Below are positions 7,852-40,800 of a stretch of 42,277 nt of DNA, one piece after another (the first letter of the stretch is position 1; each line of letters starts with the position of its first letter). The DNA is from Allokutzneria sp. A3M-2-11 16 (GTDB lineage: Bacteria; Actinomycetota; Actinomycetes; Mycobacteriales; Pseudonocardiaceae), in the NCBI RefSeq assembly GCF_024213555.1, contig NZ_JANAVO010000026.1:1-42277 (forward strand), read 5' to 3'. The notes under the pieces were generated by a model. The model saw only the letters and a list, made by a program, of their open reading frames with translations, was not told where the DNA came from and did no database searches. Both the position numbers and the translations under genes were made by a program.

Positions 7852-7944
7852 CCCCGGTGCTCGGCCACATTGTGTGACCACCTTCTTCTTGTGCTCATCT
7901 CGGAAAGTGTCCTTCCATTTTCACGGAGAGTGGGGCCGGTAAAC

Positions 7945-12335: not shown

Positions 12336-12360
12336 GACCGGTCCGGAAGAGGAGCCGACG

Positions 12361-18077: not shown

Positions 18078-19853
18078 ATGAAGAGCGCAGAAAGCGCGGA
18101 TCCCTCGGCATGGCACACGTTGTCCGACATGTTCCGCTCGCGCGCCGACGCCGAGCCGGACCGCCTCGCGTTCACCTTCCTGGACTCCACGCTCGTCGAG
18201 ACGGGCGCGCTGACGCTGCGCGAACTGGACCGGAGGGCCCGTGCGATCGCGGTGCGGCTGCGCGCGGACGTCCCGGTCGGCGGGCGCGCGCTGCTGACCT
18301 ACCAGGCGGGGCTGGACTTCGTGACCGCTTTCGTCGGCTGCCTGCACGCGGGGGTGGTCGCGGTGCCGGTTCCGGCGCTGGAGTCCGGTCGTGGTGAGAC
18401 CAGGAACCGCCGCGTCTCGGCGATCGCGCGCAGCAGCGGGGCCGAGGCGGTGCTGTGCGCGGCCTCCGGGCACGAGCGCGCCGTGGAGTGGTTGCGCGAG
18501 AGCGGGATCGACGCGCCGGCGATCGCCACCGACGAGGTGGGCACCGATCTCGCCGAGTCCTGGCTGCCGCCGGAGATCGACGCGGACTCCCTCGCCTACC
18601 TCCAGTACTCCTCCGGGTCGACGGGGGAGCCGAAGGGGGTGGAGCTGACCCACTCCAACGTGATCACCAATCTCGCGCTGATCCGGTCCAACGGCACGAT
18701 CGAGGGCGACGACCACGTGCCGCCGTCGGTGCAGTGGCTGCCGCTGTTCCACGACATGGGCCTGGTCAACGGCGTGCTCCAGCCGACCTACGAGGGCTAC
18801 GACGTGGTCCTGATGTCGCCGTTCGGGTTCGTGCAGCGGCCGGTGAGCTGGCTGCGGGTGATCACCAAGCTGGGCGAGGCGATCAGCGCGGCGCCGAACT
18901 TCGCGCTCGACCTGTGCGTGCGGCGGGTCACCGACCGGCAGCGCGAGGAGCTGGACCTGAGCGGGCTGCGGATGGTCGCGCTGGGCGCGGAGCCGATCCG
19001 CGCCGAGACCCTGGACCGCTTCTGCGCCGCCTTCGAACCGTGCGGTTTCCAGCGCAAGGCGCTGTTCCCCTGCTACGGCCTGGCCGAGTCCACCGTGATG
19101 GTCAGCGGTGGACCCGCGTGGCGCGAGCCGGTGATCCTGAGCGCGGACGCGCAGGCGCTGGAGCTGGGCCGGGTCAAGGAGGCCGAGCCGGGGGCGCGGG
19201 CGCGGCGGCTGGTCGGCTGCGGGCAGGTGCACTCCTCGATCCGGTTGGTCGTTGCGGACCCGGCGACCGGGGAGCCCGCCGAGCCCGACGCGGTCGGCGA
19301 GATCCTGGTCTCCGGGCCGAGCATCGGCAGGGGCTACTGGAACGCGCCCGAGCAGACCGGCCGGACCTTCGGCGCGAAGGTCCCCGGCGAGGGCGATCGG
19401 GAGTTCCTGCGCACCGGCGACCTCGGGTTCGTCCACAATGGACAGCTGTTCATCACGGGCAGGCTCAAGGACGTCATCATCCTCGACGGCCACAACCACT
19501 ACCCGCACGACATCGAGTCCACCGCCACCACGGCGCACCCCGCCCTGCGGCCGGAGTTCTGCTGCGCGTTCTCCGTCGACGACGGCGAGCAGGAGCGCCT
19601 GGTGGTGCTGGCCGAACTGGCGAGCGGGCACCGGGTGAACGAGACCGGCGAAGGCGGCGATCGGATGCACGCGGTCGAGGACGTCCGCGGCGTCGTGCGC
19701 AAGGCGATCACCGCCGAGCACGGCGTCGCGGTGCACGAGGTGGTGCTGCTGCCGACCGGATCGCTGCCGTTCACCAGCAGCGGCAAGCTCCAGCGGCGGG
19801 AGTGCGTGCAGCGCTACGAACGCGGCGACCTGCCTTCGGCGGTGTGGTCATGA
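18078..19853 (+). CDS. Fatty acyl-AMP ligase (FAAL), PKS starter loading
   Basis: 591 aa from ATG 18078 (GGGGAG upstream); a longer frame from 18012 is unlikely. FAALs activate a fatty acid as acyl-AMP and pass it to an ACP rather than to CoA. Seen here: the AMP-binding loop YSSGSTGEPKGVELTHSN near residue 173, and the FAAL-type run PLFHDMGLVNGVLQP, SPFGFVQRPVSWLR, APNFALDLC and CYGLAEST. The C-terminal Lys lies in TSSGKLQRR. The stop overlaps the PKS1 start (ATGA), and PKS1 begins with an ACP, the expected acceptor. The acid used is unknown; the FabF/HadAB-like genes may supply it. Confidence 0.9.
   Translation: MKSAESADPSAWHTLSDMFRSRADAEPDRLAFTFLDSTLVETGALTLRELDRRARAIAVRLRADVPVGGRALLTYQAGLDFVTAFVGCLHAGVVAVPVPALESGRGETRNRRVSAIARSSGAEAVLCAASGHERAVEWLRESGIDAPAIATDEVGTDLAESWLPPEIDADSLAYLQYSSGSTGEPKGVELTHSNVITNLALIRSNGTIEGDDHVPPSVQWLPLFHDMGLVNGVLQPTYEGYDVVLMSPFGFVQRPVSWLRVITKLGEAISAAPNFALDLCVRRVTDRQREELDLSGLRMVALGAEPIRAETLDRFCAAFEPCGFQRKALFPCYGLAESTVMVSGGPAWREPVILSADAQALELGRVKEAEPGARARRLVGCGQVHSSIRLVVADPATGEPAEPDAVGEILVSGPSIGRGYWNAPEQTGRTFGAKVPGEGDREFLRTGDLGFVHNGQLFITGRLKDVIILDGHNHYPHDIESTATTAHPALRPEFCCAFSVDDGEQERLVVLAELASGHRVNETGEGGDRMHAVEDVRGVVRKAITAEHGVAVHEVVLLPTGSLPFTSSGKLQRRECVQRYERGDLPSAVWS
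19431..19443. repeat. Variant of the 13-bp palindrome: GTCCACAATGGAC
   Basis: One of the non-identical relatives of GTCCACTGTGGAC. Others are at 13251 and 14320 (GTCCGATGTGGAC), 27972 and 37822 (GTCCGAAGTGGAC), and 5478 and 32217 (11-bp core). Confidence 0.6.
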
Positions 19854-22800
19854 CGAGCACTCCCGAGATCGGCGCCTGGCTGACGCAGCGGGTGGCGGTG
19901 GCCGCGGGCATCGACCCGGACTCCGTCGACCCGGCCGTCGCCTTCGACGCTTACGGGCTGACCTCCACCGAGGCGGTCAGCGTGGCGGGCGAGCTGGAGG
20001 AGTGGCTGGAGGTGGAGCTGGCGCCGACGCTGCTCTACCGGTACCCCACGATCGCCAAGCTCGCCGCTTTCCTTGGCGGACAAGAGGATTCGGCGCCAGA
20101 GGCCCTCGTCGCGGGCGATGACGAGAACGACCCGGTGTGCGTGGTCGGGATGGGCTGCCGGTTCCCCGGTGGCTCGAACTCGCCGGAGTCGTTCTGGCGC
20201 AACCTCCTCGACGGCCGGGACGCGGTCTCGGAGGTCCCTGCTGACCGGTGGGACGCGGACGCGCACTACTCGGCCGATCCCGGCGCGCCCGGCAAGTCCT
20301 ACACCAAGCTCGGCGGCTTCGTGGACGACCTCGCCGGTTTCGACGCCTCGTTCTTCGACATCCCGCCGCGCGAGGCGCTGCGGATGGACCCCGAGCACCG
20401 GCTGCTGATCGAGGTCGCATGGGAGGCGATCGAGGACGCGGGTATCCCGGTGGACCGCTTGCGCGGCAAGCAGGTCGGTGTCTACGTGGGCAAGCTGGCG
20501 AGCAGCCAGTACGAGAGCGTGCAGCTGGACGCGGAGGGCGCGGACTGCCTTGACGATCCGTATCTGGGCCTCGGTTCCGCGGCCAGCGTCGCGGCGGGGC
20601 GGCTGGCCTATCTGCTTGACCTGCGCGGCCCGGCTGTGGTGGTGGACACCGCATGTTCCTCTTCGCTGGTTGCCGTGCACATGGCGGTGCGCGGCGTGCT
20701 GGCGGGTGAGTGCGAGCTCGCTGTTGTCGGTGGGGTCAGTGCCACGGTGCACCCGGAAAGCGTTCGACAGGCATGCAAAATGCACATGCTCGCCAGGGAT
20801 GGACGGTGCAAGACCTTCGACGCGGCGGCCGACGGCTTCCGGATGGGCGAGGGCTGTGGGGTCGTGGTTCTGGAACGACTGAGCCGGGCGCGGGCGAACG
20901 GGCACCGGGTGCTCGCGGTGCTGCGCGGGTCGGCGGTCAACCAGGACGGCGCCAGCAACGGGCTCACCGCCCCCAACGGCGGCGCGCAGGTCGCGGTGAT
21001 CGGCGAGGCGCTGAGCCGGGCCGGGGTGGCGCCGGACAGCGTCGGCTACGTGGAGGCGCACGGTTCGGGCACGCTGCTCGGCGACTCCATTGAGATGCAG
21101 AGCATCCAGAGCGTGTTCGGCTCGCGCGCGCAGTCCCTGGTGGTCGGCGCGGTGAAGACCAACATCGGTCATCTCCTCGGCGCGGCGGGGATCGCGGGGT
21201 TGATCAAGGCGGTGTTCGCGGTGCACGAAGGCGTTGTGCCGCCCAACCTGCACCTGGCCGAGCGCAACCCGACGATCAGCTGGGACCGGTGCCCGGTCGA
21301 GCTGCCCGAGGCACCGATGTACTGGCCGGAGATCGAGGGGCCCCGCAGAGCGGGTGTCAGCTCCTTCGGCTGGTCGGGAACCAATGCTCACGTCGTCGTC
21401 GAACAGCCGCCGTCCACTGTGGACACGTCGGAAGACGCCGGGCCGCACCTGCTGTTGCTGTCCGCGGCCACGCCCAGCGCGCTCGGCGAGGCGGCCGACC
21501 GGATGCGCGAGCACCTGCACGAGCGCAAGGAACTCGACCTTTCCGATGTCGCGTTCACGACGCAGACCGGGCGCCAGGCGATGGACTGCCGGGCCGCGGT
21601 GGTCAGCCCGGATCGCGCGCACGCGCTCGGGGAGCTGCGGCGGATCGCCGCCCGGCCGCCCGCCGACCGCGTGCGGCGCGGAGGCGCGACCCCGGTGTCG
21701 TTCCTGCTGCCGGGAACCGGGGATCACTACCCGGGCATGGGTTTCGGGTTGTACGAGAGCGAACCGGCCTTCCGCGACGCGGTCGACGAATGCGTCGGCC
21801 TGCTGGAGGGACCCCTGCGCGAGCAGGTCCGGTCGATGGTGACGGCTCCGGCGCAGCGGTCGGGCTTCTTCGGTGCCTCGCGCCAGCCGACCGAGTCGCT
21901 GGACGTGGCGCACGCCGCTGTGTTCACAGTGGACTACGCCTGCGCGAAACTGTGGCAGCACTGGGGTGTCACGCCCACCGCGCTGCTCGGGTACAGCCTC
22001 GGCGAGTACGTGGCCGCGTGCCTGGCCGGGGTGTTCTCGCTGGCGGACGCGCTGCGGTTGGTGGTGTGCCGGGCGAAGATCATCCAGGCGGCACCGACCG
22101 GCGTGATGCTGGCCGTCGCGCTGCCGGAGGACCAGGTGCGGCCCCGGCTCGGCGGGCTCTCGCTCGCCGCGGTCAACGGCCCGCACACGTCCGTGGTGTC
22201 CGGCCCCGCCGACCTCGTCGCGGCCCTGGAGGAGCGGCTGGCGCGGGAGGACGTGGCCTGCCGCCGCGTGCCGACCAGCCACGCGATGCACTCGGCGATG
22301 CTCGAACCGCTGCGCGACAAGGTGATCGAGCTGCTGGCGTCCGTGAAGCCCGGAGCACTGCGGATTCCCTTCATCTCCAACGTGACCGGCACGTGGATCA
22401 CCGAGGAGCAGGCGGGTGATCCGCGCTACTGGGCGAACCACATGTGCCAGACGGTGCGCTTCGCGCCGGGCCTTGAGGAACTGCGCGAGGGCGTGCTGCT
22501 CGAGGCCGGTCCAGGTCAGCTGTCCAGCCTGGCGACGCAGATCCTCGGCGCGAACCGGGGCGCGCGCATGCTCTGCGTGCCGACGCTGCGGCCCGCCTTC
22601 GACGACGGGTCCGATCGCGAGTTCCTGCTGCGGACCGCCGGGCGGATGTGGAGCAGGGGCGTCGAGATCGACTGGCGCGCCGTCCACCGGGGCACCCGCG
22701 CTCTGGTGCCGCTGCCGACGTATCCCTTCGAGCACGTCAGGTTCTGGCCGGAAGGCACCGGCAAGGTGGTCCGGGCGAGCCAGCCCGACAAGCTGCCGAG

Positions 22801-24463
22801 CCGGGACGACTGGTGCCACGTGCCGGTGTGGACGCAGATCCCGGCGCTGCCCGGTGGACGGCAGCACACGTGGCTCGTCCTCGCTGACGAAAGCGGCCCC
22901 GCGGCGGAGCTCGCGGAGCGGCTTCGCACGGACGGAGCGGCTGTCACCGTTGTGCGGCAAGGAGAACAGCTCGATTCGACGGGGTGTACGCGTGTTGTCT
23001 ACGGCTGGAACACGGGTTTCCGGGGACTGCTCGACGTCGTGCGCGCCCTTGGCCGGACCGTTTCCGAGCCGGTCGGTGTCTTCGCGCTGACGTCGGGTGC
23101 CTTCGAGGTGGTCGGCGGAGACGGCACCACGCCGGAGGAGGCTGTGCTGGCCGGTGTGTGCCGCACGGTCGAGCCGGAGTTCCCCGCGCTCACCTGCCGC
23201 GTGATCGACTTGCCCGAGACCGGTGCGCTGGAGTCGCTGCTGGCCGAGCTGCACGCGAGCAACCCGGCCGACTGCGTGGCCTACCGCAACGGAACGCGGT
23301 GGGTTCGCGACTGGTCCAAGCTGCCCATCGGCCCGGCGGACGGTCCGTGGCGCCAAGGCGGCAGCTACCTGATCACCGGTGGTCTCGGTGGGCTCGGCTT
23401 CGGCCTCGCGCGCCAGCTCGCGCCGTACAAGCCCCGCCTGACCCTGCTCGGCAGGTCTGCGCGTCCTGATGACGAGCGCGTGCGGGAGCTGGAGTCTCTG
23501 GGTGCCGAAGTGCTTGTCCTGCAATGCGATGTGGCCGATGTCGCGGCGCTGGAGGCAGCGGTCGGCCAGGTGCGGGAACGATTCGGCGAGCTGCACGGTG
23601 TCGTGCACACGGCGGGTGTTCCGGCCAGCGGGCTGATCCAGCTCACGGAGTGGTCGGACGCGGAGCGGGTGCTGCGCCCCAAGGTCGCGGGAACCCTTGC
23701 GCTGCACGAGGTTCTGCGTGACGCGCCGTTGGACTTCCTGGTGTTGTACTCGTCGTCGGTCGTGGCGATGGGCGGACTGGGGGAGAGCGACTACAGCGCG
23801 GCGAACTCCTTCCTCGGCTCCTTCGCCCAGCAGGCGCGGCGCCGTGGTTTCCCCGCCACAGCGGTGGATTGGGGTCCGTGGCGGCACGACAGCTGGCAAT
23901 CCGAACGGCTGGCCTCGGCACCCGATCTGCGGCTGCACATGCGGGAGCTGCGCGACCGGCACGGCATCACCGAGGAGGAGGGCTTCGACCTGCTGACCCG
24001 CGTGCTGGCCAGCGGTCTGCCCGAGGTGATGGTGGTGCCGCGGGATCTGGCCGAGCTGACCGAGGAGTGGGCGACGGTCACCGGCTCGGGCGAGGCGGCC
24101 CCGGTGCTCCAGAGCTTCCCCCGGCCCGCCCTGCGCAGCCCGTTCGTCGCGCCGAGGACCCCGCTGGAGCGGCAGATCACCGAGGTGTGGCAACGGTATC
24201 TGGGGGTGGACGAGGTGGGGGTGGACGACGCCTTCTTCGACCTCGGCGGGAACTCGTTGATCGGCCTGACCATCGTCGGCGCGATCAAGAAGGAGGTCGG
24301 CGCCCCCCTCACTGCGGCCGATCTGTTCGAGGCACCGACCCCGGCCACCCTCGCGGCCCTGCTCGCGCGGCGCCTGGAGGGCGAGGCCGAGCCCGAGGTG
24401 GACGCCTCGCGCGGGGAACGCCGCCGTCAGATGGCAGCGGCCGGGCGAAGGAGGCGTCGGTGA
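19850..24463 (+). CDS. Type I polyketide synthase 1: ACP-KS-AT-KR-ACP
   Basis: 1537 aa, ATG overlapping the FAAL stop. Domains: N-terminal ACP (1-77, Ser39 in YGLTST), KS (about 95-520; Cys269, His404, His441, all intact), AT (about 615-920; Ser716 in GYSLGEY, HAMH at 811-814), KR (about 1165-1345; GGLGGLG loop, Ser-Ser-Ser and Tyr near 1313) and ACP (Ser in GGNSL near 1467). The first ACP should receive the FAAL product; one round of condensation and ketoreduction gives a 3-hydroxyacyl chain. HAMH is close to the HAFH of malonyl-specific ATs, but the Q motif is the unusual GTGDHY and the active-site His of GHS is Tyr, so the extender is not certain. The KR lacks the LDD motif of B-type KRs. 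Confidence 0.92.
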   Translation: MTSTPEIGAWLTQRVAVAAGIDPDSVDPAVAFDAYGLTSTEAVSVAGELEEWLEVELAPTLLYRYPTIAKLAAFLGGQEDSAPEALVAGDDENDPVCVVGMGCRFPGGSNSPESFWRNLLDGRDAVSEVPADRWDADAHYSADPGAPGKSYTKLGGFVDDLAGFDASFFDIPPREALRMDPEHRLLIEVAWEAIEDAGIPVDRLRGKQVGVYVGKLASSQYESVQLDAEGADCLDDPYLGLGSAASVAAGRLAYLLDLRGPAVVVDTACSSSLVAVHMAVRGVLAGECELAVVGGVSATVHPESVRQACKMHMLARDGRCKTFDAAADGFRMGEGCGVVVLERLSRARANGHRVLAVLRGSAVNQDGASNGLTAPNGGAQVAVIGEALSRAGVAPDSVGYVEAHGSGTLLGDSIEMQSIQSVFGSRAQSLVVGAVKTNIGHLLGAAGIAGLIKAVFAVHEGVVPPNLHLAERNPTISWDRCPVELPEAPMYWPEIEGPRRAGVSSFGWSGTNAHVVVEQPPSTVDTSEDAGPHLLLLSAATPSALGEAADRMREHLHERKELDLSDVAFTTQTGRQAMDCRAAVVSPDRAHALGELRRIAARPPADRVRRGGATPVSFLLPGTGDHYPGMGFGLYESEPAFRDAVDECVGLLEGPLREQVRSMVTAPAQRSGFFGASRQPTESLDVAHAAVFTVDYACAKLWQHWGVTPTALLGYSLGEYVAACLAGVFSLADALRLVVCRAKIIQAAPTGVMLAVALPEDQVRPRLGGLSLAAVNGPHTSVVSGPADLVAALEERLAREDVACRRVPTSHAMHSAMLEPLRDKVIELLASVKPGALRIPFISNVTGTWITEEQAGDPRYWANHMCQTVRFAPGLEELREGVLLEAGPGQLSSLATQILGANRGARMLCVPTLRPAFDDGSDREFLLRTAGRMWSRGVEIDWRAVHRGTRALVPLPTYPFEHVRFWPEGTGKVVRASQPDKLPSRDDWCHVPVWTQIPALPGGRQHTWLVLADESGPAAELAERLRTDGAAVTVVRQGEQLDSTGCTRVVYGWNTGFRGLLDVVRALGRTVSEPVGVFALTSGAFEVVGGDGTTPEEAVLAGVCRTVEPEFPALTCRVIDLPETGALESLLAELHASNPADCVAYRNGTRWVRDWSKLPIGPADGPWRQGGSYLITGGLGGLGFGLARQLAPYKPRLTLLGRSARPDDERVRELESLGAEVLVLQCDVADVAALEAAVGQVRERFGELHGVVHTAGVPASGLIQLTEWSDAERVLRPKVAGTLALHEVLRDAPLDFLVLYSSSVVAMGGLGESDYSAANSFLGSFAQQARRRGFPATAVDWGPWRHDSWQSERLASAPDLRLHMRELRDRHGITEEEGFDLLTRVLASGLPEVMVVPRDLAELTEEWATVTGSGEAAPVLQSFPRPALRSPFVAPRTPLERQITEVWQRYLGVDEVGVDDAFFDLGGNSLIGLTIVGAIKKEVGAPLTAADLFEAPTPATLAALLARRLEGEAEPEVDASRGERRRQMAAAGRRRRR
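21412..21424. repeat. 13-bp palindrome GTCCACTGTGGAC
   Basis: Exact copy in the KS-AT linker of PKS1, encoding part of STVD. Confidence 0.8.
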
Positions 24464-27400
24464 CTGAACACGCGGGGAACGAACAGCTCGATGACGGCAT
24501 CGCGATCGTCGGCATGGCGGGGCGGTTCCCCGGCGCACGCGACGTCGGGCAGCTGTGGCGCAACCTCTGCGACGGCGTGGAGTCGATCACGCGGTTCACC
24601 GATGAGGAGCTGCTGGCCGCCGGGGTGACGCCGCAGGAACTGGCCGATCCGGGTTATGTCAAGGCCAATCCGGTGCTCGACGACATCGAGCTGTTCGACG
24701 CGGGCTTCTTCGGGATCGCGCCGACCGAGGCCAAGCTGATGGACCCGCAGCAACGGGTGTTCCTGGAGGTCGCGTGGTCCGCGCTGGAGGCGGCGGGCTG
24801 CGATCCCGGGCGGTTCCCGGGCGCCATCGGGGTTTTCGCGGGCGCGGCGATGAGCACCTACCTGATCGACCGGCTGCTCACCGATCCCGACCTGGAGCGG
24901 TGGGCCAGCCTCACCCAGGTCGTGCTGGCCAACGACAAGGACTCGCTGAGCACGAGGGTGGCGCACGCCTTCGACCTGCGCGGCCCGAGCTACTCGGTGC
25001 AGAGCTACTGCTCGACCTCGCTGGTCGCGGTGTCCCAGGCGGCTTCGAGCCTGCTCGGCGGGGAGTGCGATGTGGCGCTGGCGGGCGGCGTCGCGATCTC
25101 CGTGCCGCACCGCGTCGGTTACCAGTTCCAGGAAGGCGGGATCTCCTCGCCGGACGGCAGTTGCCGCGCGTTCGACCGCACCGCCGAGGGCACGCCGACC
25201 GGCAACGGCGCGGCCGTCGTGGTGCTGAAGCGGCTGGCCGACGCGCTCGCCGACGGTGATCACGTGCACGCGGTGATCCGGGGCTGGGCGGTCAACAACG
25301 ACGGCGCGCTCAAGGCGGGCTACACGGCTCCGGGCGTGCGCGGCCAGGCCGCCGTGATCGCCGAGGCGATCGCCAACGCCGGGGTGGACCCCGCGACGAT
25401 CGGCTACGTCGAGGCGCACGGCACCGGGACCGCGCTCGGCGACGCGGCCGAGATCGCCGCTCTCACCAAGGCTTTCGGCCCGATCGAGCGTTGCGCGATC
25501 GGGTCCGCGAAGACCAACCTCGGCCACCTCGACCGGGCCGCGGGCGTGACCGGGCTGATCAAGGCGGCGCTCGCCGTCGAGCACGGGGTGATCCCGCCGA
25601 GCCTGCACTTCACCGAGTCGCGGGTCGATCTCGGTCCGTTCGAGGTCCAGCGGGAGCTGGGGACGTGGCAGGCGCAGCCGCGCCGCGCCGGGGTCAGCGC
25701 GTTCGGCATCGGTGGCACCAACGCCCACGTCGTGCTGGAGCAGGCGCCGTCGCGCCCGGTGCTGCCGCCGCGGCCGGGCCCGCACGTGCTGCTGCTGTCG
25801 GCGCGTTCCGAGGCCGCCGTGGACGAGCGGGCGGCACAACTGGCTTCGTACCTGCGAAACTCGCCCGGAGTGGACCTGGCCGACGTCGCCAGGACGCTGC
25901 GCGATGGGCGGGCGGAGTTCGAGCACCGCCGGGCCGTTGTCGCCACCGATGTTGCTGATGCCGTTGCCGCGCTTGAAGATCCGGACCGCGTTCGCGGTGC
26001 CGGAGGCTCGGGGCTCGTCAAGTCGTGGCTGGCGGGCGAACAGGTTGAGTACAGTGTGGACGGTTCGCTGATCCCGCTGCCCACGTATCCGTTCCAGCGC
26101 GAGCGGCACTGGGTCGACTCGCCTGGTAGTGCGCGGAACCCGGCCGACTGGCTGCGTGTGCCCCGCTTCGATCCCGCGCCGGTCCGCAACCCCGCGGCTC
26201 CCGAGGGCCCGTTCCTGATCTTCTGCGATCGGACCGGTCTGGGCGAGGAGCTGGCCGATGCCCTCGCGCCGCACGGAGACGTGCTCAAGGTGTGGCCGGA
26301 CGGGCACTGCACGAACCGCGGCGAAGACGAGTGCAGCCTGCGACCCGACGAGCTCGACGACTACGTCCGGCTGCTCGATTCGCTGCCCGCCATGCCGCGG
26401 ACCATCGTGCACCTGTGGGGCGTCACGGGCGTCGAGGACACCGTCGACCAGCAGCTGCGCTACGGCTTCCACAGCGTGATCACGCTGGCCAAGGCGTTGT
26501 CCGGTCGGGGCAGCGCGCGGCTGGCCGTCGTCGCGGACGGTCTGCACCGCGTGGACCCCGCGGACCCGGTGAGCCCCGGCAAAGCGGCTGTGCTCGGTCC
26601 GGCCCTGGTTGTGCCGCAGGAGTATCCCGGGTTGAGCTGCCGGACGATCGACGTGCGGTGTTCGGTGGAGGACCTGGTCGCGGAGCTGGGGTGGGCGGGC
26701 ACCGACACCCGCATCGCGCTGCGGCACGGTCGGCGGCTGGTGCAGCGGTTCGTGGCAGCGCCCGTGCTGAACAACCCGATTCCCTTGAAGGACAACGGTG
26801 TCTACATCCTCACCGGTGGCCTCGGGAAGGTCGGCAGGCGGATCGCGGCGGACTTCGCGCGTCGGCTGAGCTCGCCGAAGCTGGTGCTCACCGGGCGGCG
26901 CGGGGTGGCCGACGACCTCCGGGAGCTGGAGGACGCGGGTGCCGAGGTCCTGGTGCTCGCGGCCGACGCCGCCGATCCGGACGCGATGGCGAACGTCGTG
27001 CGCGCCACGCGGGAGCGGTTCGGCGCGATCAACGGTGTGGTGCACGGGATCGGCCTGACCGCGCCCGAGGAGTTCCACCCCATCGAGACGATGACGCGGG
27101 AGAACGCCGAGGCGCACTTCACCGCGAAGATCCACAGCCTGCTCGCGCTCGATCGGGCGCTCGACGGGGAAGAGCTGGACTTCTGCGTGCTCCAGTCGTC
27201 GATCTCGGCGGTGCTGGGCGGCCTGGGCTTCGCCGCTTACGCGGGGGCCAACGCGTTCCTCGACTCCTTCGCGCAGTCGCGGCGCGGGTGGATCAGCGTC
27301 AACTGGGACAGCTGGCGGGAAACGCTGGCCGACAGCGGCATCGGTGACTCGATGCGCGAGCTGTCGATGTCCTCGGACGAGGGTCTGCGCGCCCTGGAGT

Positions 27401-32106: not shown

Positions 32107-33674
32107 GCGAACTGGACGGGGCGATCGCGGTCGTCGGGATGGCCGGCCGCTGGCCGGGCGCGAACGAGCCCGCGCGGCTGTGGGCGAACCTCGCCGCGGG
32201 GGAGCGGACCATCGCGTCCACTGTGGAGGGTGTAACCGACTGGGACGCGGAGTTCTTCGGGATCTCCGAGGAGGAAGCGCGGATCATCGACCCGCAGCAC
32301 CGGCTGTTGCTGGAGTGCGCCTGGGAGGCGATGGAGTCGGCGGGGCACCCGCCCGGCACCGACTCCGGTGTGACGAGCGTGTTCGCGGGCTGTTCGTTCC
32401 CCTCCTACCTGGTGAACAACCTCGCCACCGACCCGGAAGTGCTTGCCGCGCATGACGAACTGGAGCTGGTGCTGGCGAACGAGCGGGACGCGCTGACCTC
32501 GCGGTTGGCCTACCAGCTCGACCTGCGCGGTCCCAGCGTCACCGTGCAGACCTTCTCGTCGACGTCTTTGGTCGCAGTGCACCTGGCATGTCAGAGCCTG
32601 CTCACCGAGGAGTCGGACTTCGCCTTGGCGGGCGCCGCCGCGATCCGGGTTCCGCTGGAGCCCAGGCCCGGGATCTGCCGGAGCTTCGACGCGGCAGCCG
32701 ATGGACGGGTGATCGGTGACGGTGTCGCCGTGGTGGCACTGAAGCGACTCGCCGACGCGGTCGCTGACGGAGATCACGTGTGGTGCGTCATCCGCGGCAC
32801 GGCGGTCAACAACGCGGGCTCGGCGCGGCCCGGTTATGCGGCGCCGGGAATGGCGGCCCAGGCCGAGGTGATGATCGAGGCGCTGGCCGCGGCGGAGCTG
32901 TCTGCCGAAGATGTGTCCTATGTGGAGGCTCATGCCACCGGCACACCCCAGGGCGATGCGGTGGAGCTGGGCGCGCTCGAACGTGCTTACTGCCCAAGGG
33001 AAGACACGTTGCTCCTTGGCTCCTGCACGGCGAACCTCGGGCACCTCGAAGGCGCCTCCGGGGTGACCGGCCTGATCAAGGTCGCGTCGATGCTGCACAA
33101 CGCGTTCCTGCCGCCGCAGATCGACTTCGACACGCCGAGCCCGGCGTTGGTGGCCGCGCCGAGCCTCCGCGTGAACACCGAGGCGACGAAGTGGACGCGC
33201 GGCGACGGGCCTCTGCGAGCCGGTGTCAGTTCCGTCGGGCTAGGCGGGGTGAACGCGCATGTCGTGCTGGAGGAGCCACCGCAGCGCCCCGTGCGGTCAG
33301 CTGAGGAGCTGGCGGGCCCGCACCTGATCCTCTTGTCCGCCAAGACTCCTGCCGCACTGGAAGAAGCGGCTGTCCGGCTGCGGGACCACCTCGTGGCTGA
33401 GCCCGAGGTCGAGCTGTGCGATGTGGCGTACACCCTCCAAATAGGACGAAACGCTTTCAAGTGCCGGCGTGCGCTGCTCTGTACCGACCGCGCGCACGCC
33501 ATCGAGCTATTGACCACGCCCGGACCGGCTCCGGACGTGGCTGAGTCGTGGCTGGCTGGCGAGGCCGTGGACTGGCGTGCCTCGCACGACGGCCGCACGC
33601 GGCTGCGCGTGCCGCTGCCGACTTACCCGTTCCAGCGGCGCCAGTGCTGGGTCGGCCCAACCGAGGAAAGGTGA
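32103..33674 (+). CDS. Terminal degenerate ketosynthase protein (Cys to Ser, no AT, no ACP)
   Basis: 523 aa, ATG overlapping the PKS2 stop. The fold is a modular KS, but the catalytic Cys is Ser152 (TFSSTSL where the others have FCSTSL), the active-site Lys of KTNxGH is Ala310 (CTANLGH), and the QEGG-SPDG loop present in the PKS2 ketosynthases is missing. His277 and His314 remain. After the KS come a pre-AT linker and a post-AT linker (SWLAGEAVDWR, LPTYPFQRRQCW) with no AT between, then the protein stops. It cannot form the normal acyl-Cys intermediate. It may act as a docking or gatekeeping domain, as an acyltransferase or releasing domain through the Ser, or be decaying; its intact frame and coupling favour a function. 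Confidence 0.88.
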   Translation: MSELDGAIAVVGMAGRWPGANEPARLWANLAAGERTIASTVEGVTDWDAEFFGISEEEARIIDPQHRLLLECAWEAMESAGHPPGTDSGVTSVFAGCSFPSYLVNNLATDPEVLAAHDELELVLANERDALTSRLAYQLDLRGPSVTVQTFSSTSLVAVHLACQSLLTEESDFALAGAAAIRVPLEPRPGICRSFDAAADGRVIGDGVAVVALKRLADAVADGDHVWCVIRGTAVNNAGSARPGYAAPGMAAQAEVMIEALAAAELSAEDVSYVEAHATGTPQGDAVELGALERAYCPREDTLLLGSCTANLGHLEGASGVTGLIKVASMLHNAFLPPQIDFDTPSPALVAAPSLRVNTEATKWTRGDGPLRAGVSSVGLGGVNAHVVLEEPPQRPVRSAEELAGPHLILLSAKTPAALEEAAVRLRDHLVAEPEVELCDVAYTLQIGRNAFKCRRALLCTDRAHAIELLTTPGPAPDVAESWLAGEAVDWRASHDGRTRLRVPLPTYPFQRRQCWVGPTEER

Positions 33675-33679
33675 CCTGG

Positions 33680-34513
33680 ATGAGCAGGGTCGGAGTGATT
33701 GGCGCCGGTGTGATGGGCACCGGCATGACGCAGAGCCTCGTCGAGCACGGCCACGACGTGGTGCTGGTCGACCGCACCGACGAGGCGCTGGAACGCGCGC
33801 TCGCGGAGGCGGAGAACTACCGGCGGTTCGGTTCGCTGCTGGGCCGGGTGGCACCGGAGATCGAGGGCAAGGTGACCTCGGGCACCGACTTCGAGCTGCT
33901 CTCCGATGTGGACTTCGTGATCGAGAACGTGACCGAGGACTGGGCGGTGAAGCAGGAGGTCTACCGGACGCTGGACCAGGTCTGCCCGCCCCGGTGCGCC
34001 TTCGCCGCCAACACCTCGGCGATCCCGATCACCCGCATCGCCGGGGCCACCTCGCGGCCGGACCGGGTGCTGGGCATGCACTTCATGAACCCGGTGCCGA
34101 TGAAGCGCAGCGTCGAGGTGATCAAGGGCTGGCACACCTCGGAGGAGACGATCACCGAGGCGATGGAGCTGCTGAGCAGCTTCGGCAAGGAAGGCATCCT
34201 GGTCAAGGACTCGCCCGGCTTCGTGTCCAACCGGGTGCTGATGCTGACGGTGAACGAGGCCGTGTACCTGGTGCACGACGGCGTGGCCTCGGCCGAGGAC
34301 GTCGACAAGCTGTTCCGGTCCTGCTTCGGCCACCCGATGGGGCCGCTGGAGACCGCCGACCTGATCGGCCTGGACACGATCCTGCTCAGCGTCGAGGTGC
34401 TGCACGAGAGCTTCGCCGACAGCAAGTACCGCCCGTGCCCGCTGCTCAAGCAGATGGTCGACGCGGGTCTGCACGGCCGCAAATCCGGCCAGGGCTTCTA
34501 CACCTACCGATAG
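33680..34513 (+). CDS. 3-hydroxyacyl-CoA dehydrogenase-like (FkbK-like), hydroxymalonyl-ACP pathway
   Basis: 277 aa; ATG 33680 preceded by GAGGAAAGG. The N-terminal NAD loop is VGVIGAGVMGTGM (residues 4-16), followed by the family signature DFVIENVTED and MHFMNPVPMKR. In methoxymalonyl- and hydroxymalonyl-ACP pathways (FkbK, ZmaG, AsmD type) this enzyme oxidises the primary hydroxyl of glyceryl-ACP towards the aldehyde. First of four adjacent genes matching that set (dehydrogenase, ACP, acyl-CoA dehydrogenase, FkbH). It sits 5 bp after the degenerate KS gene in the same operon. Confidence 0.85.
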   Translation: MSRVGVIGAGVMGTGMTQSLVEHGHDVVLVDRTDEALERALAEAENYRRFGSLLGRVAPEIEGKVTSGTDFELLSDVDFVIENVTEDWAVKQEVYRTLDQVCPPRCAFAANTSAIPITRIAGATSRPDRVLGMHFMNPVPMKRSVEVIKGWHTSEETITEAMELLSSFGKEGILVKDSPGFVSNRVLMLTVNEAVYLVHDGVASAEDVDKLFRSCFGHPMGPLETADLIGLDTILLSVEVLHESFADSKYRPCPLLKQMVDAGLHGRKSGQGFYTYR

Positions 34514-34538
34514 CACCTACCGACAGATGGAGGACGAC

Positions 34539-34793
34539 ATGGCGACCACTGCGGCCCGGGAGAGCATCCGGGGATTCGTCTGCCCGCGTTTCCCCGGTGT
34601 CGAGCTCGACGACGACCAGGACATCTTCGCGCTGGGCTTCGTGAACTCGCTGTTCGCGATGGAGCTGGTGATGTTCGTGGAGCGCGAGTTCGACGTGCGG
34701 GTGCCGAACGAGGAGCTGGACCTGGCGAACTTCCGCACGGTGCGGGCGATGTGCGATCTGGTGGGGCGCTTGGCCAAGGTGAGCGCCCCGTGA
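34539..34793 (+). CDS. Discrete acyl carrier protein (FkbJ-like)
   Basis: 84 aa from ATG 34539, with GGAGG 5 nt upstream; the ATG at 34527 is less well placed. Small acidic protein with the phosphopantetheine site GFVNSL (Ser37) at the start of helix 2. In this gene context it should carry the glyceryl, then hydroxymalonyl unit. The stop overlaps the start of the acyl-CoA dehydrogenase gene (GTGA). Confidence 0.88.
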   Translation: MATTAARESIRGFVCPRFPGVELDDDQDIFALGFVNSLFAMELVMFVEREFDVRVPNEELDLANFRTVRAMCDLVGRLAKVSAP

Positions 34794-35863
34794 CCGAGTT
34801 CCGGTCCTTTGTGGACCGTGTGGTCCGGCCGAACGCCGAGGACTTCGACCGCGCCGGGGAGATCCCGGCGTGGGTGCTGGAGGAGGTCTCCGCCGCGGGC
34901 TACTGGGGCGCGGTCCTCGACGGCGACATGGTCCGGTTCGGCGCGCTGCACGAGGAGATCGGCCGCGGCTGCTCCTCCCTGCGGAGCCTGCTCACCGTGC
35001 ACAGCATGGTGTCCTACGCGGTCGACCGCTGGGGCACGGCGGCGGCCCGGGAGAAGTGGTTGCCACAGCTGGCTTCCGGTCGCGTCCTCGGCGGCTTCTG
35101 CCTGACCGAGGCCGAAGCGGGCAGCGACTGCGCGGCACTGGTCGCGACGGCCGTTCCGCACGAAGGCGGCTACCGGATCAACGCGCGGAAGAAGTGGACG
35201 ACCGGCGGGCAGATCGCCGGGCTGCTGCTGGTGTTCGCGCGCACCGAACGCGGGCTGTCGGCGTTCGTGGTGCCAGGAGACGCGCCGGGTGTCAAGCGCA
35301 CGCCGATCGGTGACGTGCTCGGCACCCGGGCCAGCATGATGGCCGACATCGAGCTGGTCGACTGCGAGGTCGGCGCCGACTCCCTTGTGGGAGCGGAGGG
35401 AATGGGCCTCGCGGTGATCACCGGCGCGCTCGACATCGGCCGCTACAGCGTCGCCTGCGGCTCCGTCGGGATCACCCAGGCGTGCCTGGAGGCGGTGACC
35501 GCGCACTGCACCGAGCGGGTCCAGGGCGGCTCCGTGCTCGCCGAGCACCAGCTCGTGCAGAAGATGATCACCGAGATGGCGGTGAACGTGCGGGCCGCGC
35601 GGCTGCTCTGCGTCGAGGCGGGGGAGTCCAAGGACCGCGGCGACCCGGAGACGATCATCGCCACCTGCGTCGCCAAGTACTTCGCCTCCACCACGGCGAT
35701 GCGCGCGGCGGGCGACGCGGTCCAGCTGCACGGCGCGGTCGGCTGCGCGGACGGGCACCCGGTGTCGCGGTACTTCCGCGACGCGAAGGTCATGGAGATC
35801 ATCGAGGGCAGCACGCAGATCCAGGAGCTGCTCATCGCGCGTGACGCCCTGAGAGGGAGGTGA
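34790..35863 (+). CDS. Acyl-CoA dehydrogenase-like (FkbI-like), hydroxymalonyl-ACP pathway
   Basis: 357 aa, GTG overlapping the ACP stop. FAD-dependent acyl-CoA dehydrogenase fold: FCLTEAEAGSDCAAL (flavin contact), KKWTTGG, and the C-terminal MEIIEGSTQIQ with the catalytic Glu. In FkbI/ZmaE-type proteins the enzyme completes oxidation of the ACP-bound three-carbon unit to hydroxymalonyl-ACP. Slightly shorter than the usual 380 residues but no motif is lost. Confidence 0.88.
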   Translation: MTEFRSFVDRVVRPNAEDFDRAGEIPAWVLEEVSAAGYWGAVLDGDMVRFGALHEEIGRGCSSLRSLLTVHSMVSYAVDRWGTAAAREKWLPQLASGRVLGGFCLTEAEAGSDCAALVATAVPHEGGYRINARKKWTTGGQIAGLLLVFARTERGLSAFVVPGDAPGVKRTPIGDVLGTRASMMADIELVDCEVGADSLVGAEGMGLAVITGALDIGRYSVACGSVGITQACLEAVTAHCTERVQGGSVLAEHQLVQKMITEMAVNVRAARLLCVEAGESKDRGDPETIIATCVAKYFASTTAMRAAGDAVQLHGAVGCADGHPVSRYFRDAKVMEIIEGSTQIQELLIARDALRGR

Positions 35864-35867
35864 ACCG

Positions 35868-36893
35868 GTGCGCGGCAAGGTGAAGTGTGTCATCTGGGAC
35901 CTGGACAACACGGTCTGGGACGGCGTGCTGCTGGAAGGCGACGAGCTGGTCCCGCGGCCGGTCGTCGTCGAGACGATCAAGGCGCTGGACGAGCGCGGCG
36001 TGCTCAACTCCGTCGCCAGCCGCAACGATCCCGAGGTCGCGATGGCGCGGCTGGAGCGGTTCGGGCTGGCGGAGTACTTCCTGCACCCGCAGATCGGCTG
36101 GAACTCCAAGTCGCTGTCGATCAAGAAGGTCGCCGAGGCGCTCAACCTGGGCGTCGACGCCATGGCCTTCGTCGACGACCAGCCGTTCGAGCGCGAGGAG
36201 GTCGGCTTCGTCTGCCCGGAGGTGCTGTGCGTGGACGCCGCCGACGTGGCGGGCATCCTCGACCGGGAGGAGTTCACGCCGAAGTTCATCACCGACGAGT
36301 CCAAGCTGCGGCGCGAGATGTACCGCAGCGCCATCGAGCGGACCGCGGTCGAGGAGTCCTTCACCGGCAACAACGAGGACTTCCTCGCCACGCTCGGGAT
36401 GGTGTTCACCATCAGCGAGGCCGGGGAGGAGGACCTGCAGCGCGCCGAGGAGCTGACAGTCCGGACCAACCAGCTCAACTCCACCGGCGTGACCTACTCC
36501 TACTCGGAGCTCGCGGAGTTCGTCAGCTCGCCGGACCACCTGCTGCTCACCGCGCGGCTGGAGGACCGCTACGGCAGCTACGGCCAGATCGGCCTCGCGC
36601 TCGCCGAACGGGGGACCGACGTGTGGCAGCTGAAACTGCTGCTCATGTCCTGCCGGGTGATGTCGCGCGGGGTCGGGACGGTGCTGCTCAACCACGTGAT
36701 GCGGCTGGCGCAGGAGGCCGGTGCGCGGCTGGAGGCGGAGTTCGTGCCGACCGACCGCAACCGGGTGATGTACGTGACCTACCGCTTCGCCGGATTCACC
36801 GAGATCAGACGTGGGGAAGGAGATGTGGTCGTGCTGGGTGCCCCGGAGACACCGGTGCAGGAACCCCCGGCGTACCTGACCGTAAAAGTATGA
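35868..36893 (+). CDS. FkbH-like glyceryl transferase/phosphatase
   Basis: 341 aa, GTG 35868 with GAGGGAGG 8 nt upstream. HAD-superfamily motif DLDNT (Asp11, Asp13) near the start, and the C-terminal LLMSCRVMSRGVGTVLLNHV characteristic of FkbH. FkbH-type enzymes take 1,3-bisphosphoglycerate, remove phosphate and load glycerate onto an ACP. Followed by the oxidising enzymes above this yields hydroxymalonyl-ACP; no FkbG-type O-methyltransferase is encoded in the window, so the unit is predicted to stay unmethylated. Confidence 0.9.
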   Translation: MRGKVKCVIWDLDNTVWDGVLLEGDELVPRPVVVETIKALDERGVLNSVASRNDPEVAMARLERFGLAEYFLHPQIGWNSKSLSIKKVAEALNLGVDAMAFVDDQPFEREEVGFVCPEVLCVDAADVAGILDREEFTPKFITDESKLRREMYRSAIERTAVEESFTGNNEDFLATLGMVFTISEAGEEDLQRAEELTVRTNQLNSTGVTYSYSELAEFVSSPDHLLLTARLEDRYGSYGQIGLALAERGTDVWQLKLLLMSCRVMSRGVGTVLLNHVMRLAQEAGARLEAEFVPTDRNRVMYVTYRFAGFTEIRRGEGDVVVLGAPETPVQEPPAYLTVKV

Positions 36894-37615
36894 CCGGATT
36901 CGAACACCTGACCGGCTCCGCGCGGGCCAGTCCCGTGTCGGTGGCGGTGTGGCGGGTGGAGCTGGACCAGCCCGCCGAGGTCACCGGGGCCGCGCGGGCC
37001 TGGCTGAGCCCGGACGAGCTGGAACGCGCGGAGCTGTTCGCCACGCCCCAGGGCCGGGACCGCTACGTCGTCGCGCACGGGGCGCTGCGGGACATCCTCG
37101 CCCGGTACCTCATCCGGGCTCCGGGCGAGTTGCGGTTCCGGCGGGGAATGCACGGGAAACCCATGTTGGAGGGGGAAGAGCTGGCGTTCAGCCTCGCGCA
37201 CTCGGGGCCGTACGCACTGGTGGCCGTCAGCAGGCGCGCGGAGGTCGGAGTGGACGTGGAGGTCGTGACAGATCGCCCGGAGCCGTTGTTCTTCGCGGGC
37301 CGGTTCTTCACCCCGGCGGAGTTCGAGGACCTGCGCTCCAGCCCGCTGGAGGAGCGCTCCCGGGTGTTCTTCGAGTACTGGACCCGCAAGGAGAGCTACC
37401 TCAAGGCCATCGGCATGGGGCTCGACCAGCCGCTGGAGACCTTCCAGGTGCTGGCCGGGAGCGGGGACCGGCCCGTGTGCGACCAGGGCGGGAACCCGCT
37501 CGGCTGGACCGCCCGCGACCTGCGGCCGTGGGCCGGGGTGGCGGGCGCGGTGGCGGTGCGGGGATTATCAGTGGTGGCGCGATGCCCGACGTGGCGGCCG
37601 GAGGAACGTACATGA
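36890..37615 (+). CDS. Sfp-type 4'-phosphopantetheinyl transferase
   Basis: 241 aa, ATG overlapping the FkbH-like stop (ATGA). The family signatures are the metal-binding GVDVE (residues 120-124) and the WTRKESYLKA block (164-173). It should convert the apo-ACPs of the PKSs and the discrete ACP to holo form using CoA. A TTA codon at 37565-37567, near the 3' end, makes activation of the whole line potentially bldA-dependent. Coupled to the ATP-grasp gene by another ATGA overlap. Confidence 0.92.
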   Translation: MTGFEHLTGSARASPVSVAVWRVELDQPAEVTGAARAWLSPDELERAELFATPQGRDRYVVAHGALRDILARYLIRAPGELRFRRGMHGKPMLEGEELAFSLAHSGPYALVAVSRRAEVGVDVEVVTDRPEPLFFAGRFFTPAEFEDLRSSPLEERSRVFFEYWTRKESYLKAIGMGLDQPLETFQVLAGSGDRPVCDQGGNPLGWTARDLRPWAGVAGAVAVRGLSVVARCPTWRPEERT

Positions 37616-38823
37616 GACGGCTGCGAGTCCTGCTCTCCGACGGTTCCGGGGTGACCTCACGACAGGTCGCCACCGCGCTCGGGCGGGCGGGGCACGAGGT
37701 GGAGGCGGTGAACCCGCCCGGTCCGACCCTGATGGCCGAGACCCGGTGGGTGAACAAGCTGCACCCGGTTCCCTTTCCCGGCGACGATCCGCTCGGCTGG
37801 TGCGACGCGGTGGCCGAGATCGTCCGAAGTGGACGGTTCGACGTGCTGCTCGCCACCCAGGAGCAGGTCGCCGTGCTCACCGTGGAGGCTTCGCGGTTCC
37901 GCTCCCTGGGCGTCGGTCTCGCGGTCCCGGAGTTCGCTTCCCTGCAACGGGTCCAGGACAAGATCTCCGCCGTGTCCACGTTGCGGGCCGCCGGGTTGCC
38001 GCAGCCGCCGAGCCAGGTGGTGCGCAGCGCTTCGGAGCTGCTCGCGGTCGAGCCGCCGGTGTACGTCAAGGCCGCGGTGAGCACCGCGAGCAGGGGAGTG
38101 CACTTCGCCGATTCCGCCGCCGCGCTCGAAGCTCTCGCCCCGAAACTGTCCTTTGAGGACGGTGCGCTCGTCCAGCAGCCCGTCGACGGCAGGCTGGTGA
38201 TGGTGCAGTCGGTGTTCGATCGTGGGCGGCTCGTGGCGTGGCACGCGGCGGAGCGCGTTCGGTCGGACCGCAACGGCGGGGGCACGCACAAGCTCGGGCT
38301 GTGCCTGCCGGAGGTCCGCGACCACCTCGTCCAGCTCGGTGATCACCTGAAGTGGCACGGCGCGCTGTCCATGGACGCCGTGTACACATCGGACGGTCCG
38401 TTCTACATCGACATCAACCCCCGCATCGTGGAGCCGATCAACGCGTCACTGTCCGGAGTGGACCTCGTGGGCGCGCTGCTGCGGATATCGCTCGGCGAAC
38501 ACCCTGAGGTGCAAGAAGATCCCGTGCCCGGCACCGCCACCCACCAGCTTCTGCTCGCCGTGCTCAGCTCGGCCGCCGAGGGGCGCCTGGCGATCGCCCG
38601 GGAGCTGTGGCAGGCGATCACGCACACCGGCTCGTACCGGGGCAGCGTCGAGGAACTGCTGCCGCCACGGGGTGATCTGCGGACGGTCGTGCCCCTCGTC
38701 TTCGTCGCGGGCAAGCTGCTCTACTCTCCGGGCAAGGCGCGCAAGACAGTGAGCGGGGCGGTCGGGAACTATGCGCTGACCGCTCAGGGCTGGCGCGATC
38801 TTCAGGCGCGGTACCGGTCATGA
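37612..38823 (+). CDS. ATP-grasp carboxylate ligase-like protein
   Basis: 403 aa; ATG 37612 with GAGGAAC upstream, within the ATGA overlap. The first 110 residues look like a pre-ATP-grasp domain (LRVLLSDGSGVTSRQVATAL); the ATP-grasp core follows (PVYVKAAVSTASRGV as ATP-binding lysine strand, and DGPFYIDINPRIVEP with the metal-binding Asp/Asn). ATP-grasp ligases activate a carboxylate as acyl phosphate and couple it to an amine or other nucleophile. With no thioesterase in the cluster, it may take part in tailoring or release of the product, or attach an amino acid. Substrates cannot be told from sequence. Confidence 0.8.
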   Translation: MRRLRVLLSDGSGVTSRQVATALGRAGHEVEAVNPPGPTLMAETRWVNKLHPVPFPGDDPLGWCDAVAEIVRSGRFDVLLATQEQVAVLTVEASRFRSLGVGLAVPEFASLQRVQDKISAVSTLRAAGLPQPPSQVVRSASELLAVEPPVYVKAAVSTASRGVHFADSAAALEALAPKLSFEDGALVQQPVDGRLVMVQSVFDRGRLVAWHAAERVRSDRNGGGTHKLGLCLPEVRDHLVQLGDHLKWHGALSMDAVYTSDGPFYIDINPRIVEPINASLSGVDLVGALLRISLGEHPEVQEDPVPGTATHQLLLAVLSSAAEGRLAIARELWQAITHTGSYRGSVEELLPPRGDLRTVVPLVFVAGKLLYSPGKARKTVSGAVGNYALTAQGWRDLQARYRS

Positions 38824-40367: not shown

Positions 40368-40800
40368 GTTGCCCCAGGAGTACGCGTCGCTGCCGATCGG
40401 TGAGTTCGCTTTCCCCGGCCCGCTGCGCGATCGGCTCGTCGCGGCGATCGTGGCCGGGGAGAAGACCACCACCAGCTGCCTGCACCTTGAGTTCACCGAC
40501 GACGAGCTACCCCAGGTCGGGCAGCGCGAGGTCGTGATCGACTCCGACGCCCGCCCCGTCGCGGTGATCGAGACCACCGAGATCCGCGTACTGCCGCTCG
40601 GCGAGGTCGATGCCCAGCACGCGATCGACGAGGGCGAGGGTTTCCTCGGCGTCGAGGACTGGCGTGTCGGCCACGAGGAGTTCTGGCACAGCTCGGAGTA
40701 CCGCTCGGCGATCAGCCAGCCCCAGTTCACCGTCACCGACGCGACTCTCGTGGTAGCGCAACGCTTCCGCCTCGTCGAGGACCTGCGGCACGCGCTTTAG
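40360..40800 (+). CDS. ASCH-domain protein
   Basis: 146 aa, GTG start overlapping the regulator gene by 8 bp. ASCH proteins have a PUA-like fold that may bind RNA; the pattern FPGPLRDRLVAAIVAGEKTTT, REVVIDSDARPVAVIETTE and DEGEGFLGVEDWRVGHEEFW matches the family. Probably unconnected to the biosynthesis although co-transcribed. Confidence 0.8.
   Translation: MDELPQEYASLPIGEFAFPGPLRDRLVAAIVAGEKTTTSCLHLEFTDDELPQVGQREVVIDSDARPVAVIETTEIRVLPLGEVDAQHAIDEGEGFLGVEDWRVGHEEFWHSSEYRSAISQPQFTVTDATLVVAQRFRLVEDLRHAL

Follow-up and report, generated by a model that had tools for sequence, protein, structure and literature searches.

A probable fatty acyl-AMP ligase-primed polyketide cluster of Allokutzneria with a predicted butyrolactol-type hydroxymalonyl assembly line

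Contig NZ_JANAVO010000026.1 of Allokutzneria sp. A3M-2-11 16 (C18; 42,277 bases, analysed whole and called the window here; genome 8.81 Mb in 43 contigs) carries at 18078-38823 a polyketide synthase (PKS) cluster that starts with a fatty acyl-AMP ligase (FAAL) gene and includes FkbK-J-I-H genes predicted to supply hydroxymalonyl-acyl carrier protein (ACP). The cluster probably encodes a FAAL-primed polyol assembly line (probability about 0.7), in which three hydroxymalonyl units would lengthen a fatty acyl starter into a 2,3,4,5,6,7-hexahydroxy acid or lactone. By sequence, this line is orthologous to the last four modules of butyrolactol-type lines, since ketosynthase (KS) trees show four matching positions, and the FAAL with its ACP replaces the upstream PKS. 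The genes are as follows (AT, acyltransferase; KR, ketoreductase).

18078..19853, + strand, FAAL (PF00501 and DIP2-like C domain; NCBIfam and PDB matches)
19850..24463, + strand, PKS1, ACP-KS-AT-KR-ACP (Pfam; KS motif VDTACSSSL; AT motifs GYSLGE/HAMHS)
24460..32106, + strand, PKS2, KS-KR-ACP-KS-AT-KR-ACP (Pfam, motifs)
about 24490-27735, + strand, PKS2 module a, KS-KR-ACP, no AT (Pfam, motifs)
about 27780-32000, + strand, PKS2 module b, KS-AT-KR-ACP (AT motifs GHSIGE/HAFHS)
32103..33674, + strand, PKS3, lone KS without AT, KR or ACP (Pfam, alignment)
33680..34513, + strand, FkbK-like 3-hydroxyacyl dehydrogenase (PF02737/PF00725; 58-67% to relatives)
34527..34793, + strand, FkbJ-like discrete ACP (PF00550)
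34790..35863, + strand, FkbI-like acyl dehydrogenase (PDB FkbI 1R2J, E=4.3e-49, tenth among the matches)
35868..36893, + strand, FkbH-family glyceryl transferase/phosphatase of the haloacid dehalogenase type (TIGR01686, 272.1 bits, cut-off 146.65)
36890..37615, + strand, Sfp-type 4'-phosphopantetheinyl transferase, PPTase (PF01648; best NCBIfam match the HetI model, below cut-off)
37612..38823, + strand, ATP-grasp ligase-like protein (PF02655; predicted structure; Foldseek)

According to open reading frame (ORF) and family scans, all genes from the FAAL to the ATP-grasp gene lie on the + strand and are tightly packed, with overlaps of the ATGA or GTGA type at several junctions and five bases between the PKS3 stop and FkbK. 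A 624-aa ORF at 36949 is not a single gene; its first ~220 codons run out of frame over the PPTase gene. Pfam finds only KS, AT, KR and ACP domains in PKS1-3, with KR as the sole reductive domain and neither dehydratase (DH) nor enoylreductase, and no nonribosomal peptide synthetase (NRPS) domain in the window ORFs scanned. No methyltransferase or FkbG-like gene is present among the contig ORFs scanned with Pfam. The contig has no PF00975 thioesterase (TE) match, and no relatives of two cluster TEs were found in the window; the PPTase gene alone lies between the FkbH and ATP-grasp genes. FkbH, ACP, 3-hydroxyacyl dehydrogenase and acyl dehydrogenase genes stand together without FkbG, which is the gene set of a hydroxymalonyl-ACP line. 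The FAAL lies directly upstream of PKS1, a place from which the PKS for a tert-butyl tail is absent, and is followed by the N-terminal ACP of PKS1, as in FAAL-primed PKSs (by sequence family). An earlier note on this DNA had described the same packed series of FAAL, three KR-only PKS genes, FkbK/J/I/H, PPTase and ATP-grasp genes, all of which are found where it placed them; its reading as FAAL priming, KR-level polyol chemistry and a hydroxymalonyl-ACP supply of the cluster's own without O-methylation or TE agrees with the families present and absent.

In the proposed pathway, the FAAL would adenylate a fatty acid and load it on the N-terminal ACP of PKS1, as its family suggests. Going by their gene families and by what is known for zwittermicin and butyrolactol, FkbH, FkbJ, FkbK and FkbI would make glyceryl-ACP and oxidise it to hydroxymalonyl-ACP, with FkbK acting in glyceryl-ACP oxidation and FkbI in hydroxymalonyl-ACP formation, and the hydroxyl would stay free because there is no FkbG. 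PKS1 and both PKS2 modules would each add one hydroxymalonyl unit and reduce the keto group, module a being loaded by the AT of PKS1, the AT of module b or a discrete AT encoded by another part of the genome. PKS3 would be a condensation-dead relic of a terminal module. The expected chain, a 2,3,4,5,6,7-hexahydroxy fatty acyl thioester, might be released as acid or gamma-lactone via a stray TE or by self-lactonisation, and the ATP-grasp protein may couple the carboxylate to an amine or give self-protection.

Butyrolactol A is an antifungal whose head is built by the same kind of machinery; the available part of PMC5355916 reports C1-C8 labelled by glucose, not acetate, and a hydroxymalonyl origin. 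Its producer TP-A0882 is assigned to Streptomyces ardesiacus in the portion of PMC5932044 at hand, where the last modules are given as KS/KR/ACP, KS/AT/KR/ACP twice and KS/DH/KR/ACP. In S. ardesiacus NBRC 15402 (L118), PKS, FkbK-J-I-H, TE and ATP-grasp genes follow in the same relative order as in the window. The 1170-codon terminal PKS and the 262-codon PF00975 TE of this locus agree with a 1,169-aa PKS and a 261-aa thioesterase in the gene table of PMC5355916, and by position the 408-aa 'hypothetical protein' of that table would be the ATP-grasp relative. Two further genomes, G131 and G147, have the same tail, TE included. In the KS trees, the PKS1 KS clusters with the KS of the module that precedes module a in G131 and G147 (support 100/97), modules a (98/99) and b (99/99) group with the next two modules of butyrolactol-type lines, and the PKS3 KS falls in a clade of terminal AT-less modules (96/98) that includes the butyrolactol species. 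This species itself represents only the terminal KS (L118), with G131 and G147 standing in at the other three positions. KS identities to the counterparts in G031, another FAAL-containing genome, are 72% for module a and 75% for module b. The gene set, which the earlier note had left without a recognisable parent, has one: FkbK-J-I-H plus ATP-grasp is the tail of the butyrolactol A cluster, the KSs are orthologous, and three relatives with a FAAL exist.

The extender prediction is drawn from the two intact ATs. In the AT tree, intact polyol ATs form one clade (13 rows, 100/99) with both window ATs inside; six malonyl-/methylmalonyl-type AT rows of G131 and G147 stand apart from it. The PKS2 AT nests with GYSVG ATs of G031 (100/98 in one tree, 94/93 in another). 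In the RXR motif, Ala or Pro occupies the first position in 14/14 intact polyol ATs, including that of a second line on contig C7 of the same genome, and Lys or Arg does so in 6/6 malonyl/methylmalonyl-type controls. GYS is found in 13 of the 14 polyol ATs and GHS in all six controls, the exception being the window PKS2 AT (GHSIG); the PKS1 AT has both GYS and a non-basic first RXR position, the PKS2 AT only the latter (Ala). In the sections of PMC4207774 available, GYSFG belongs to the hydroxymalonyl-specific ZmaA-AT and GYSLG to ZmaF, the RXR positions being taken by hydrophobic residues, and ATs for ACP-linked extenders are reported with loss of the basic residue. The closest of 43 PDB matches of the PKS1 AT is ZmaA-AT (4QBU), which ranks only eighth for an AT of G131 that is malonyl-type by motif. 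Hydroxymalonyl use is fairly well supported for the PKS1 AT and less well for the module b AT, and in the modules of the relatives it is predicted by orthology. As both intact ATs lie in the polyol clade, three hydroxymalonyl units are likelier than one, and the single hydroxymalonyl-derived carbon first proposed is probably too few, with some doubt on the PKS2 AT.

Several observations weigh against three hydroxymalonyl units and the pathway built on them. In PMC4207774 GHSIG is the motif of a malonyl-CoA AT, and the PDB ranking of the PKS2 AT has CurL first and ZmaA fifth; from these two points, malonyl may be the extender of module b. The extender of PKS1-type ATs is less certain because they make up a sister group of their own, and the last basic residue of RXR is often kept in polyol ATs, unlike in ZmaA. 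The PDB ranking of a polyol AT of G131 puts ZmaA only third; rank is therefore a weak test. The sharing of ATs by hydroxymalonyl lines, suggested because some module lacks a working AT in each related line inspected, is deduced from missing domains, and discrete ATs lie elsewhere in the source genome (C17:20613, C11:3612013). No TE that could release the chain was found in the window. A mixed line, with hydroxymalonyl in PKS1 and in module a (loaded by the PKS1 AT) and malonyl-CoA in module b, would give a shorter polyol with one CH2. This outcome is unlikely, though worth keeping in mind: GHSIG and HAFH of the PKS2 AT are the motifs of the malonyl-specific ZmaK-AT (PMC4207774, in the part available) and CurL is its best PDB match, but its nesting with the GYSVG ATs of G031 and the Ala at its first RXR position, in place of Lys or Arg, speak for hydroxymalonyl.

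In module a of PKS2 the AT is gone and its flanking linkers remain. At least one module without a working AT occurs in 11/11 related lines seen at domain level (the window, G031, G1027, S. tuirus, G131, G147, C40 and C7 of the source genome, and the terminal parts of L118, L055 and L058, the last three being close relatives and so not independent). The AT is absent from window module a, from terminal modules and from the last full module of the C7 line, whose KS is most like that of PKS1. An inactivated AT, whose catalytic Ser is changed to Gly and whose His segment is missing, is carried by the module preceding module a in G131 and G147 and by module b in S. tuirus and G1027. The latter two would need a single intact AT to load both of their modules, or else the help of a discrete AT.

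PKS3 has a Ser in place of the active-site Cys (VQTFSSTSL; codon 32556-32558) and a Thr in place of the Lys of the conserved SxKTNxGH motif (SCTANLGH; 33027-33029), and it lacks ~26 aa near the N-terminus and 11 aa further on. It keeps both His motifs, the post-AT linker and an open frame. Its branch in the KS tree is long (0.78 vs a median end branch of 0.18) and its third-position GC, 0.849, is the lowest of the PKS pieces (others 0.891-0.918); a structure model of middling quality (pLDDT 75.8) was not used. Given the residue losses and deletions, PKS3 should hardly be able to condense, and three working modules remain. Three PKS genes are present, as the first description had it, but this one, a lone KS with both substitutions, is no working module. 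Most likely it is the condensation-dead relic of a terminal module.

The same genome has a second hydroxymalonyl-type line at C7:79244-90000 (L177), which ends in a KS-AT protein without KR or ACP. Its terminal KS has VQAHSATSL (Cys to Ser) and ETNASGT for EAHGTGT, follows a module without AT and stands directly before FkbK-J-I-H-TE-PPTase. This KS falls in the module-a KS clade. A common origin of the two Cys-to-Ser KSs was rejected (AU test, p = 0.021), though the branches of both KSs are long and the two were singled out after inspection of an earlier tree. Their occurrence at the same place may be due to a terminal module decaying by chance or may point to a function; the further losses of PKS3 favour decay.

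A non-functional cluster, with the AT loss of module a and the residue losses of PKS3 as steps of decay, is improbable: the missing Cys, Lys and two stretches of PKS3, its long branch and its low third-position GC fit such a course, but the reading frames remain open, their starts overlap and their composition is that of coding DNA, PKS1 and PKS2 have kept their KS and AT motifs, and AT-less modules belong to the normal make-up of the butyrolactol line, whose product is known (PMC5932044, as far as its available text goes). PKS3 might be an off-loader in place of the missing TE, its Ser taking the chain as an oxyester that the polyol attacks to give the gamma-lactone. A TE follows FkbH in L118, G131, G147 and C7 and none is found on C18, PKS3 keeps both His motifs and its frame, and C7 offers a second Cys-to-Ser terminal KS directly before FkbK. 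This role is nevertheless very improbable, with the Lys-to-Thr change and the loss of a conserved 11-residue stretch in PKS3, with a C7 example that comes with a TE of its own and no longer has one of the His motifs, and with G031, where the terminal KS has its Cys and 50.5 kb contain no TE homologue either. In another scheme, a shared GYS-type AT fed by FkbJ would load several modules that lack a working AT of their own, and the two terminal Cys-to-Ser KSs of this genome would act as off-loaders (or FkbJ docks) instead of carrying out a last condensation, producing lipid-tailed contiguous hexaols as a new class; it is a long shot.

For the FAAL gene, FAAL models make up most of the top NCBIfam matches, none at its curated cut-off and the first being an NRPS/PKS model; the 15 PDB matches include FadD23, FadD28 and FadD32, the first entries being labelled polyketide synthase and saframycin synthetase. 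At E <= 1e-150 the FAAL matched 5/392 genomes of the genus of G424, 12/297 of the window's family (own included) and 2/306 of its class (own and G1027). Contexts were inspected in seven hit genomes (3/5 of the genus search, 4/11 non-own genomes of the family search); two, G1027 and G031, combine FAAL with FkbK-J-I-H, and five have other contexts. A third such cluster, in S. tuirus PHM034 (L130-132), came from the ATP-grasp scan described below; the available part of the S. tuirus paper PMC10609185 concerns other lipopeptides. FAAL identities to these three clusters are 48-55%.

The clusters of S. tuirus, G1027 (L151) and G031 (L157/L160) share FAAL, ACP-KS-AT-KR-ACP, further module(s) and FkbK-J-I-H with the window, and two of the three have a PPTase. 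In S. tuirus and G1027, two modules precede FkbK-J-I-H, after which come genes for an R2-type ferritin-like protein, TE, PPTase and GMC oxidoreductase (in S. tuirus at L131:15100-16865 and L132:27-2249); this set suggests a polyol lipid that undergoes further oxidation. The ferritin-like protein is 88% identical between the two. The four modules of G031 end in an AT-less KS-KR-ACP whose KS keeps its Cys, and ABC transporter genes were recognised there by eye; no relative of the S. tuirus TE is found within the 50.5 kb examined. A third polyol-type line of the source genome, at C40:10031-22515 (L032/L033), consists of two GYS AT modules and an AT-less KS-KR-ACP. Contig C40 has no FkbH, and the C18 or the C7 cluster may supply its line with hydroxymalonyl-ACP.

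Upstream of the cluster, an operon at 7822-14422 encodes an AMP-ligase/aldehyde dehydrogenase-like fusion, a thiamine diphosphate (ThDP) enzyme, a FabF-like KS and two HadA/HadB-like dehydratases. As a maker of the starter it is unsupported: the fusion gene occurs in 24/294 same-family genomes (own included), the ThDP gene stands beside it in 7/9 other loci compared, and the surroundings of the other three FAAL clusters showed neither gene. The ThDP gene, once listed as a feature of the cluster, belongs to this operon, which occurs without the cluster. The FabF-like KS at 12301-13608 may still be relevant because a FabF-like KS (39-40% to the window's) lies divergently beside the FAAL in S. 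tuirus and G1027.

The ATP-grasp gene has a wider distribution. With an ATP-grasp alignment, a scan of contigs of 84,980 species gave 120 relatives, and the analysis went on with the best 80; a scan with the single sequence had found none. Most of the best 80 loci are from Bradyrhizobium and relatives. FkbK-J-I-H lies within the flanks at five of the 80, four of these, S. ardesiacus L118 among them, being co-directional PKS-FkbK-J-I-H-...-ATP-grasp, and is absent at 75 (some contigs being short). Foldseek matches of the predicted structure (AF2, pLDDT 91.8) include biotin carboxylases, with a TM (query) near 0.6, as well as L-amino acid ligases and PylC. N269 and R271 are invariant and D267 nearly so in 30 sequences, in what we take to be the conserved D/E-x-N-x-R motif of ATP-grasp carboxylate-amine ligases. 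No characterised member of this branch is among the sequence-scan relatives or the Foldseek matches. A major facilitator superfamily (MFS) gene adjoins the ATP-grasp gene at 3/5 inspected loci without FkbKJIH, so transport or self-protection is as possible a role as tailoring. ATG22-like MFS genes adjoin it in L053, L020, L016 and L022, with PKS genes in L016 and L022 and none in the flanks of L053 and L020; the pair may be a resistance or uptake unit.

That this protein is the key tailoring enzyme, forming an amide of the polyol acid, is doubtful. The fold, the ligase matches and the presence of the gene in butyrolactol-type clusters would suit it. ATP-grasp enzymes activate carboxylates, not thioesters, and butyrolactol A presumably has no amide. 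Butyrolactol A is a lactone (PMC5355916, available part), and the many loci without FkbKJIH and the MFS neighbours also argue against such a role.

Four further genes flank the cluster.

38820..40367, + strand, LuxR-type regulator overlapping the ATP-grasp gene (PF00196)
40360..40800, + strand, ASCH-domain protein (PF04266)
15828..17111, - strand, divergent MFS transporter (PF07690; membership by position only)
17054..17818, - strand, divergent response regulator (PF00072/PF00196; membership by position only)

The LuxR-type gene is a probable cluster regulator, the membership of the ASCH gene is doubtful, and the divergent genes are a possible exporter and a possible regulator. The cluster lies about 18 kb from one contig end and 3.4 kb from the other. 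The right border is probably inside the contig, as the LuxR gene is followed by the ASCH gene and a weakly scoring trypsin-like gene. The contig ends (1-248 and 42030-42277) are inverted copies (235/248 bases identical), so the assembly probably broke at this repeat; each resembles C40:7359-7606, where a DUF222 gene ends, at about 81%. Contig C40, the only one compared, was rejected as a continuation, the window ends having no overlap with its first 300 bases. An interspersed repeat of ~110-127 bp is 94-97% identical between window 15679-15805 and C40:1-111, 6246-6370 and 22614-22739.

A small group of FAAL-primed clusters seems to put butyrolactol polyol chemistry on a fatty acid, and the present one may yield fatty acids in which several adjacent carbons bear hydroxyls. 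As models of the butyrolactol head group, the predicted amphiphilic polyols would be compact, and with three modules the line would be a short system for testing the delivery of hydroxymalonyl to AT-less modules. According to PMC5355916 (2017), butyrolactol A lacked structural relatives apart from its congener. In a literature search with subscription journals mostly outside its reach, no report was found joining hydroxymalonyl(-ACP) with a FAAL, or a hydroxymalonyl polyketide or butyrolactol A with an ATP-grasp protein.

Among known systems, methoxymalonyl-ACP lines of the FK520 type have FkbG-H-I-J-K. Relatives of their FkbH, I, J and K are common to the window, whereas an FkbG-like methyltransferase was not found on C18. 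The zwittermicin A pathway (ZmaN/D/G/E, ZmaA-AT) has the same kind of hydroxymalonyl-ACP supply, and the PKS1 AT is nearest ZmaA-AT; zwittermicin is, however, made by an NRPS-PKS hybrid, and the window ORFs scanned have no NRPS domain. The butyrolactol A cluster shares related hydroxymalonyl-type KSs, the FkbK-J-I-H order without FkbG nearby, a downstream ATP-grasp gene and AT-less modules. It differs in having a PKS chain with a tert-butyl end where the window has a FAAL-loaded fatty acid starter, in a terminal module not reduced to a dead KS, and in TE and MFS genes between FkbH and ATP-grasp (Table 2 of PMC5355916, in the part available), where the window has the PPTase. By its sequence relationships, the cluster would belong to a known kind, the hydroxymalonyl-ACP PKSs of butyrolactol type, and its new features would be FAAL priming, three modules and a dead terminal KS.

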